Positions 17,437 to 19,559 of a stretch of 64,000 nucleotides of DNA are shown here, one piece after another. A program made the position numbers and the translations under genes. Position 1 is the first letter of the stretch, and each line of letters opens with the position of its first letter. Origin of the DNA: Leptolyngbya sp. NIES-3755 (GTDB lineage Bacteria > Cyanobacteriota > Cyanobacteriia > Leptolyngbyales > Leptolyngbyaceae); NCBI GenBank assembly GCA_001548435.1, contig AP017308.1, forward strand, positions 3,047,030-3,111,029, read 5' to 3'. The notes under the pieces are model-generated. The model was not told the origin of the DNA and did not search any database. It worked only from the letters and a program-made list of their open reading frames with translations.

Positions 17437-17568
17437 ACTTGATCGGATCAAATCTACGAAGTCAATGTAAAATCCCTAAAACATATCGTGTGGCGAAAAT
17501 TGTAAAGCGTTCTGAACTTGGAACTGCTTTTGTTAACCCTTGTTCCTGACGAACGGAGAACAGCATCA

Positions 17569-18912
17569 ATGTGGGATGATACGGATGATTCAGCGGCATC
17601 AAATTTAGAGCGCAACGGGCGGACAGCACAACGCCGCCGTTCTCGTCGTCGGGCAGTTGAAACTCCACCGAAACCGATTCCCCTTCCGTCACGTCGGGAA
17701 CGAGCACGTAAACCAATTCCAACTGAGCGATCGAAACCTCGCGACTTTGCCACCACAGTTCGATCGTTTGGCACTGATCGTCCGCGATCGAAAGAACGTC
17801 GTCTCGAAGTGGTTCCCCCGCCAGAAGTTCGACGCACTCCTGCAAGAAAACCGCCCGCACCTAAAAGTCGATCGGCATTAGCATTTCTCTATGGCACTCG
17901 ATTGTTAATTCTAGGTGTTGGAATTGGTGTGATTGCTGGAACTAGCTTATCGATTTGGGACCCAGCGACGAGATTTGGCGGAACTCCTCAACCTGAAAAA
18001 ACTGAACAAGCAACGCCTTCTCCTACTCCTGCTGTCGCGTCTCAACTTCAACTGAATCAAGAGATTACGGGGCTGAAAACGCAAATTCAAACTGCGATCG
18101 CGTCCCAAACCCAATTAACTCCAGGCTTCATGATCGTCGATGCCGATACTCACGCTTATGTGGATGTCAATGGCTCCAATCCGATTCCTGCTGCTAGTAC
18201 AATCAAATTTCCGATTCTCGTTGCCTTTTTCCAAGCGGTCGATGAAGGAAAGATTCGACTTGATGAACCGTTGACCATGCGAAAAGAACTTGTTGCGACT
18301 GAATCTGGAGAGCTTCAAAATCTGCCTGTCGGTTCACAGTTTCCCGCGATCGAAGTGGCAACCAAAATGATCGATATCAGCGACAACACCGCGACAAATA
18401 TGATTATCGATCGCTTGGGTGGCAAAGATGCTGTCAATCAGCGGTTTCAATCTTGGGGCTTAACGAATACTGCCGTTCAAAACATGCTCCCCGATTTGCC
18501 AGGGACGAATACGAGTAGTCCGCGTGATATGGTCGCGCTCTTAGATGCGGTGAATCGTGGCGAATTAGTCACGATGCGATCGCACGATCGCATGCTCAGC
18601 ATCATGCGGAAAGTCGTCAACAATTCGCTGCTGCCACAAGGATTGGGAGAAGGATCAGCGATCGCTCATAAAACCGGAGACATCGGAATTATGCTCGGTG
18701 ATGTTGGCATGATCGATTTACCGAATGGGAAACGCTATTTGATGGCGGCAATGGTGAAACGTCCACACAATGACGATCGAGCCGGAGACCTGATTCGCCA
18801 AGTGTCGAAGATGACGTTTCAGTATTTCAATCAATTGAATGCGGCTCCACCGAGTCCGACACCGAGTCCACAAGGAGCAGAACCCCCGAAATCCACGATC
18901 GCACAACCCTAA
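17569..18912 (+). CDS. Class A beta-lactamase-like serine hydrolase with basic N-terminal extension
   Basis: A 447-residue membrane-anchored serine hydrolase. Residues 1-100 are Arg/Pro-rich and low in complexity, a single membrane helix follows (about 103-128), then a Pro-rich spacer and a penicilloyl-serine-transferase fold. All three active-site motifs are intact: S210-T-I-K213, S271-D-N273 and K368-T-G370. The fold is class A-like but the usual omega-loop Glu motif is not obvious, so it may be a cell-wall-related enzyme rather than a resistance enzyme. ATG at 17569 has GGAG upstream. The C-terminus is a short Pro-rich tail. Confidence 0.85.
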   Translation: MWDDTDDSAASNLERNGRTAQRRRSRRRAVETPPKPIPLPSRRERARKPIPTERSKPRDFATTVRSFGTDRPRSKERRLEVVPPPEVRRTPARKPPAPKSRSALAFLYGTRLLILGVGIGVIAGTSLSIWDPATRFGGTPQPEKTEQATPSPTPAVASQLQLNQEITGLKTQIQTAIASQTQLTPGFMIVDADTHAYVDVNGSNPIPAASTIKFPILVAFFQAVDEGKIRLDEPLTMRKELVATESGELQNLPVGSQFPAIEVATKMIDISDNTATNMIIDRLGGKDAVNQRFQSWGLTNTAVQNMLPDLPGTNTSSPRDMVALLDAVNRGELVTMRSHDRMLSIMRKVVNNSLLPQGLGEGSAIAHKTGDIGIMLGDVGMIDLPNGKRYLMAAMVKRPHNDDRAGDLIRQVSKMTFQYFNQLNAAPPSPTPSPQGAEPPKSTIAQP

Positions 18913-18924
18913 TGTTCATTGTGT

Positions 18925-19291
18925 CACCGGGAAACCCAATTCCCTTGTGGGTTGGGAGGGATAGGTGCGCGGACTGATGGGGTTCAATGCCCCGGAAGCC
19001 CGCACTAATCAGGCACTAATCAGTGCGAGAAACGATGGTCTCTCTGGTATAATTGTCGGCATGACAAGCCCACTCCTTTAACAAAGGCACGACCTGCAAG
19101 GCTACGCACTACAGGAGATACAGTTTCGGAAGCTTTAGCTTTCTGGGAGAGAGGGATGAGCATAACGCTCCTTGCAAAATCAATTGAATACTTCGGGTGG
19201 CAGTCAATCCGCCTATTGCGCTCCGACTTCTAGACGGCTAGTTGGATGTGGAAGTGCAAGCCCCATCCCCTTGTGGGTGAGGTAGTTGACA
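18925..19291 (+). mobile_element. IS200/IS605-like right end with omega-RNA-like folds, no transposase
   Basis: This gene-free segment is rich in hairpins: AACCCA/TGGGTT (18933-18953), GTGCG/CGCAC (18965-19005) enclosing GGGG/CCCC, and a terminal stem CCCCATCC/GGGTGAGG (19261-19282) followed by TAGTTGAC. The last feature resembles the right-end hairpin of cyanobacterial IS200/IS605 elements next to tnpB, where the guide RNA is encoded. An 11-bp direct repeat, CCCTTGTGGGT, recurs at 18942 and 19268. No tnpA or tnpB reading frame remains. Recognition is by resemblance; the left boundary is unknown. Confidence 0.4.
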
Positions 19292-19325
19292 TAATGAAAA
19301 ACGTATCGATCGTAGTTTTGGACTT

Positions 19326-19559
19326 ATGACATTAATCACAGTTTTAAGATCGATTTGGGTATTTTCTGCGGTCGGAATTGTCATTCTGGTACTGTTGCAT
19401 AGTCCGAAAGGCGATGGTTTGGGTGGATTGGGCGGTCAAGCTCAACTGTTTACCAGTACCAAAAGCGCAGAAACGACTCTGAATCGTGCCACTTGGCTAC
19501 TCACCATTCTATTTATGGGAATCACCGTTGTTCTGAGTGCAGGATGGCTCGGTCGCTAG
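19326..19559 (+). CDS. secG: Preprotein translocase subunit SecG
   Basis: A 77-residue protein with two membrane helices (about 5-25 and 52-74) flanking the conserved cytoplasmic loop SPKGDGLGGLGGQAQLFTS. SecG assists SecYE in protein translocation. It starts about 35 bp after the IS-like segment; TTGACA at 19286-19291 could act as its -35 element. The next gene's likely start overlaps its last 16 bases. Confidence 0.93.
   Translation: MTLITVLRSIWVFSAVGIVILVLLHSPKGDGLGGLGGQAQLFTSTKSAETTLNRATWLLTILFMGITVVLSAGWLGR

Follow-up and report, generated by a model that had tools for sequence, protein, structure and literature searches.

A complete non-autonomous transposable element of the IS200/IS605 type was found upstream of secG in the window, the 64,000-nucleotide stretch of Leptolyngbya sp. 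NIES-3755 DNA that was analysed. The element contains a conserved, structured 5' module where a tnpB gene should be, followed by a 3' part that is homologous, as judged from covariance models, to the omega-RNA scaffold ending a clade of cyanobacterial tnpB genes. The element is probably a PATE-like satellite transposon; it would make its own guide RNA for TnpB and use both TnpB and TnpA in trans. The module that replaces tnpB, the promoter-like motif in front of it, and the sister elements in other genera extend a preliminary description of this DNA. Feature coordinates are provided in Table 1.

Table 1. Features of the element and its flanks, in window coordinates
Feature	Position	Strand	Basis or remark
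Beta-lactamase2-family gene, other neighbour of the element	17518-18912		Pfam
Target motif TTCAT, predicted TAM	18915-18919	+	Belongs to the pre-existing site, outside the element
Whole element, non-autonomous, IS200/IS605 type	18920-19290	+	371 bp; comparison of filled and empty sites; 2 further copies in the genome
Left-end subterminal hairpin, CCCAA..TTGGG	18935-18956	+	Aligned with left ends of tnpB elements
Second left-end hairpin	18966-19004	+	Sequence variable, pairing kept in other copies
Extended -10 TGGTATAAT, putative omega-RNA promoter	19045-19053	+	TGRTAYMRT in 10/10 aligned modules
5' module of the putative RNA, orphan-specific, where tnpB should be	19063-19172	+	Model R3
3' module, TnpB-type omega-RNA scaffold	19173-19290	+	Model R2, E=5.6e-19; 118 nt
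Fossil TnpB C-terminus, LRVAVNPPIALRLLDG plus stop	19191-19241	+	In frame; compared with the L112 TnpB tail LRAAVNPPIALRSLDG
Core hairpin GGGTGG-CAGTCAAT-CCGCCT	19195-19214	+	Covarying pairs
GTCAA in core loop, putative pseudoknot partner of 19286-19290 (TTGAC)	19203-19207	+	5/5 pairs, invariant
Second stem TTGCGCTCC...GGAAGTGCAA	19216-19259	+	Covarying pairs
Right-end hairpin GCCCCATCC..GGGTGAGGT	19260-19283	+	Covarying pairs
Right terminus TAGTTGAC	19283-19290	+	Sequence; empty-site comparison
Predicted guide source in the flank, 16-20 nt	19291-19310	+	secG side
secG, downstream neighbour outside the element	19326-19559	+	Pfam SecG, E=3.7e-18

Extent, insertion site, and ends

The boundaries of the element were set from uninterrupted sites upstream of secG in three genomes of the same genus (G002, G005, and G001; TTCAT|ATAATGAG; TTCAT|ATAATG), which identify TTCAT as the old target and 19291 as the first flanking base; the interval 18925-19291 of the preliminary description was corrected on this basis. 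In G002 and G005 the Beta-lactamase2-family gene and secG are joined by ...AATGTTCAT|ATAATGAGAAACGTATCGATCG..., and in G001 TTCATATAATGAGAAACG lies ahead of secG with a different upstream gene. The remaining four genomes of the genus have secG or the upstream gene and no uninterrupted stretch. Comparison of the empty and filled sites placed the insertion exactly 3' of TTCAT and revealed no target duplication. The element was inserted after the split from these close relatives. A secG leader conserved at this position, raised earlier as an alternative, is ruled out by the three empty sites.

Two more copies, 82% identical, are located at different loci of the same genome, each after TTCAT. The same motif precedes all nine tnpB-less copies with an available left flank and seven of the eight tnpB elements viewed, the eighth (L119) having no visible left end. 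A right end had been reported in the preliminary description; it is present, including the CCCCATCC/GGGTGAGG hairpin and the terminus listed in Table 1, and the label does not cover the left end, which is there as well. Nor is the term relic supported, since the element is complete: its left end is present, its insertion site is precise, and two further copies lie at other sites.

Assignment to the IS200/IS605 group was based on the subterminal hairpins at both ends and on insertion behind a fixed short motif, with no duplication of the target. Both the left end (CCGGGAAACCCAATTCCC...GGGTTGGGAGGGATAGG) and the right end can be aligned with the corresponding ends of tnpB elements from this and other cyanobacterial genomes. 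Being transposase-free and present in several copies, with IS605-like palindromes and no target duplication, the element is also PATE-like and non-autonomous, as had been proposed. A classical MITE was rejected because target duplication is absent and the ends are hairpins rather than inverted repeats of one another.

No tnpB or tnpA frame is left in the element according to the list of open reading frames and a scan with a TnpB HMM, in agreement with the preliminary description. The HMM was built from L060 and from those TnpB loci of the own genome that passed a motif filter (9 of 16), and absence of tnpB here means that none was detected by it. What remains of TnpB is a C-terminal tail, 17 codons long and closed by a stop, that translates as ILRVAVNPPIALRLLDG; the TnpB of L112 ends in LRAAVNPPIALRSLDG. 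No tnpB was detected within about 1.5 kb on either side of the window copy, L002, L003, L053, or L055, and the scaffold is therefore regarded as an orphan form. A DNA similarity search of the interior of the element against 386 genomes of the phylum returned its own copies and short, chance-length matches only, and the element was unmatched in plasmid, phage, and viral collections.

The insertion split a TATAAT present at the empty site in G002, G005, and G001, and the hexamer at 19291-19296 now reads CATAAT. The split hexamer could have been the -10 of secG. In the window, secG may now depend on the promoter of the element, in which case the secG message and the putative guide RNA could form one transcript.

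The omega-RNA scaffold and the 5' module

Two covariance models were constructed, R1 trained solely on five tnpB-less copies and R2 trained solely on ten tnpB-linked right ends. When the 64-kb window was searched with R2, the 3' module was matched (Table 1), and the one other match with E up to 10 (E=1.7) was the left-end hairpin of the element itself. Other tnpB-less copies were matched by R2 with E values from 6.6e-24 to 1.2e-16. In the reverse direction, R1 had matches at E<=0.1 in 7 of 42 genomes of the family and in 30 of 388 genomes of the class, the latter drawn from a larger group. Of 56 match rows, 40 were fetched and inspected: a same-strand tnpB overlapped or adjoined the match at 14 loci, tnpB was located elsewhere at 2, and none was detected at 24. 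Several of these 24 match weakly or at an end alone, and no guide RNA is claimed for them. Since R2 finds the window element and R1 finds the 3' ends of tnpB genes, the 3' part is identified as a TnpB-type omega-RNA scaffold by sequence and structure comparison. The omega-RNA-like character and the IS200/IS605-type right end suggested earlier are both borne out by these searches, and the possibility that the segment resembles no IS605 end is eliminated by the matches to tnpB-linked ends.

Evidence for the fold was obtained from the alignments. Among the tnpB-linked rows (alignment A5), 97.3% of cells were paired and two-sided pairs numbered 13, against 4.1 in shuffles; in alignment A6 the corresponding values were 13 and 6.3. 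When the tnpB-linked structure was laid on 10 tnpB-less copies, 281 of 300 cells were paired, compared with 37.5-46.9% when it was slid. Two-sided changes were found in 10 of the 30 scaffold pairs in the tnpB-less rows, some of which are near-duplicates, and 28 of the 30 pairs are kept in the window copy. The nested hairpins of the preliminary description are thus upheld as conserved, covarying stems, although the folding energy of the window RNA was not below that of dinucleotide shuffles (z=+0.71; 140 of 200 shuffles folded at least as well), and minimum free energy was discarded as support for structure.

The terminal TTGAC and the GTCAA of the core loop are complementary at five of five pairs in every row of A5 and A6. 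These pairs never vary and so provide no covariation support; that the two segments can pair as a pseudoknot is suggested by their conservation and by analogy with ISDra2, in which the 3' end of the scaffold pairs about 100 nt upstream (PMC10097598). No Rfam family was matched at the cut-off, and a permissive search produced one chance snoRNA match. Transposon-nuclease guide RNAs without a nuclease gene nearby are also found among the orphan IscB omega RNAs (HEARO). Unlike these, the element has no match to the Rfam HEARO family, and an IscB omega RNA was ruled out for this reason.

The 5' module is a structured segment of about 110 nt located behind an extended -10. The -10 pattern fits all ten aligned modules, which come from six genomes (alignment A8); by itself the motif is not rare, with 7 occurrences in the window against 4.46 expected. 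A sigma-70 scan identified no full promoter, and a consensus scan no terminator. Model R3, derived from the 5' module, was used to search the same class genomes with stricter filters and eight candidates scored per genome, and found 12 places in 6 of the 388 genomes and none in 17 tnpB-bearing loci. A seventh genome (G550) has a fragment of the module at a contig edge. Of the 12 places, 8 have the scaffold 3' of the module on the same contig, 3 are truncated by the end of a contig, and the last is a fragment (G594:C441). Two-sided changes were present in 4 of the 25 modelled pairs of the module. A minus-strand open frame at 19020-19163 is also open in other copies and is probably a by-product of the structured RNA.

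Sister elements and nucleases in the genome

Identities between the window element and its relatives in other genera, given for module, scaffold, and left end in that order, were 95%, 86%, and 86% for L053 (G395), 92%, 71%, and 76% for G594, 91% (89% in the reverse run), 76%, and 73% for L109 (G519), and 77%, 81%, and 64% for L055 (G399). The module was better conserved than the ends or scaffold in three of these four comparisons, L055 being the exception. Within the genome, comparison with L003 displayed the reverse pattern (85%, 97%, and 73%). The scaffold and left end of L109 are 93% and 96% identical to those of a co-resident tnpB element (L121, also in G519), in which the module is unmatched. 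From these patterns the history of the elements would seem to be mosaic, the ends and scaffold having apparently been swapped with local elements and the module having stayed.

A second, different group of tnpB-less loci with R2 matches (E of 2.6e-9 to 3.5e-7) was noted, comprising L126, L130, L131, L128 (G564), L136 (G006, of the same genus as the window), and L138 (G174). Several of these have in common a GGTTTGTCCGTGAC-like sequence and an upstream GGTACAAT motif, and the group looks like another type of orphan omega RNA. A weaker scaffold match was recorded in L140 (G422; positions 2457-2635; R2 E=8.2e-6), the upstream part of which contains CAGCAAGGCTACGCACTGCTG, the loop sequence of the CTGCAAGGCTACGCACTACAG hairpin of the window element, on a different stem. 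Other loci (L137 in G444, near 2550-2595, L142, L143, and L148) are very short, with one hairpin common to the left and right ends; L137 measures 46 bp after TTCAT, and these are terminal-only PATEs, as in Haloquadratum.

The presence of TnpB-like proteins elsewhere in the genome, anticipated in the preliminary description, was confirmed: 16 TnpB genes were found, two of which (372 aa, intact) belong to the clade of the element. The right ends of these two genes match R1 with E=2.4e-13 and 1.9e-12, and the scaffolds of the own TnpBs differ from that of the element in the second stem. One of the two proteins was aligned with four partners from other genomes, to which it is 85-89% identical; D180, E261, and D344, which we take to be the RuvC residues, are invariant. 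Three Y1 TnpA genes are present in the genome, and none of the three was tied to the ends of the element. One of them is interrupted by a TAG codon (C1:479288-479632).

As proposed earlier, the guide would be taken from the secG side. The predicted guide begins ATAATGAAAAACGTATC..., and the corresponding target is TTCAT+ATAATGARAAACGTATC (TTCAT+ATAATGAGAAACGTATC), which is present without a mismatch in G002 and G005 and with 2 mismatches in G001. No intact TAM plus target was found in the own genome with up to 3 mismatches; the sole match of the guide there within 3 mismatches is the junction of the element itself, where the TAM is replaced.

Proposed mode of action, alternatives, and significance

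The following sequence of events is proposed. Transcription driven by the extended -10 would start at about 19060 and yield a single RNA that crosses the scaffold and runs on into the flank. TnpB produced by tnpB elements elsewhere in the genome would bind this RNA, its terminal TTGAC being paired to the loop with GTCAA, and some 16-20 nt at the start of the flank would serve as guide. Excision by TnpA acting in trans would rejoin TTCAT and the flank, and this site would be cut by TnpB; repair from a sister chromosome bearing the element would then retain the satellite, which codes for no protein. The 5' module might, as a guess, make up for the tnpB mRNA, which lends processing or stability to an ordinary omega RNA. 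Transcription, ribonucleoprotein formation, and cleavage are predictions from sequence for the RNA of this element.

In ISDra2, as published, TnpB uses RNA from the right end with a flank guide of about 16 nt and cuts next to the TAM; a role in bringing the element back to the joined donor site has been proposed for it (PMC8612924). As in the ISDra2-type omega RNA (reRNA), the scaffold stops at the right end, the guide would come from the flank, the TAM lies at the left of the joined site (PMC8612924, PMC10097598), and the 3' end of the scaffold can pair with an upstream loop (PMC10097598). Unlike it, the scaffold of the element does not end a tnpB gene in cis, and it is preceded by a separate promoter-like motif and by the module, some 110 nt long, that is absent from the 17 tnpB-bearing loci searched. 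The tnpB-only (IS1341-like) elements L112 (G588), L121 (G519), and L061/L062 (own genome) have the same TTCAT target, left-end layout, scaffold, and GTTGAC terminus but differ in having an intact TnpB and no 5' module. The PATEs of Haloquadratum are transposase-free with IS605-type subterminal palindromes and no target duplication, like the present element, and some were derived from tnpB elements by core deletion; unlike them, the element has a structured RNA module conserved across genera (PMC3119063). One of these PATEs, HqIRS71, retains part of the 3' coding end of tnpB, is not treated as a guide RNA in the passages describing it (PMC3119063), and may perhaps be comparable to the window element. 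In the open-access literature, to which the search was confined (subscription papers being outside its scope), no description was found of tnpB-less TnpB guide-RNA elements, or of an omega RNA that stands alone behind a promoter with a 5' module.

A TnpA requires only the ends of its element, and an ordinary PATE or decayed tnpB element could have lost tnpB by internal deletion and kept the scaffold only as an overlap of the right end that TnpA needs, with no function as a guide RNA. This explanation, which we consider unlikely, would account for the fossil TnpB tail and has precedents in the terminal-only elements of related genomes such as L137 and in the core deletions of Haloquadratum (PMC3119063); repeated exchange with live tnpB elements could, moreover, keep compensated scaffolds in dead copies. 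But deletion cannot create a 5' module that is common to several genera, was not seen in the tnpB loci searched, has two-sided changes in its pairs, and is better conserved than the rest of the element in three of four comparisons across genera. A dead passenger is disfavoured because tnpB elements do not have the 5' module. Since terminal-only copies demonstrate that the ends suffice, the retention of more than the ends suggests selection. Within the favoured reading of a satellite that encodes its own guide RNA, a more specific history is put forward tentatively, namely that of a distinct cyanobacterial lineage in which tnpB was replaced by a promoter-driven, trans-acting omega RNA with a conserved 5' domain, which homes by means of the TnpB of co-resident relatives and swaps its ends and scaffold with the tnpB element of the genome to stay compatible (as for L109 and L121 in G519).

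The preliminary description had also considered a domesticated guide RNA working with a TnpB-like protein encoded elsewhere; as a rival reading, such an RNA would regulate secG or some other gene of the host. The position between the Beta-lactamase2-family gene and secG, a guide that coincides with the secG leader, and the splitting of a TATAAT whose promoter role is presumed would suit this idea, which is nevertheless extremely improbable: the element is missing at the site in three genomes of the genus, no TAM plus target occurs in its own genome within the mismatches allowed, and other copies are located at different loci with different flanks. Domestication at secG is unsupported because the guide would target the empty site of the element itself. 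It is highly improbable, too, that the 5' module is an antisense gene for a small protein rather than an RNA structure. The frame is open in five of five aligned copies, and a tblastn search at E<=0.1 matched it in 5 of 39 genomes of relatives, the match in one genome being weak (E=0.02). In comparisons with L055, the most diverged copy, the substitutions are spread evenly across codon positions (9, 9, 11 to 12, 11, 14); in closer pairs, which have few changes, position 3 is favoured (4, 3, 8). The ends of the frame vary between copies, and no Pfam match was found for a small protein on either strand of the element.

TnpB is usually viewed as a selfish retention device with an RNA derived from the 3' end of its own gene. 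If the proposed reading is true, the guide can spread by itself as a parasite of the nuclease, a situation reminiscent of CRISPR-Cas12, where guide and nuclease are separate. The element would then also be a natural stand-alone omega-RNA gene, the 5' domain of which might help to express TnpB guides in trans. It makes testable whether retention driven by TnpB serves elements that do not encode TnpB.
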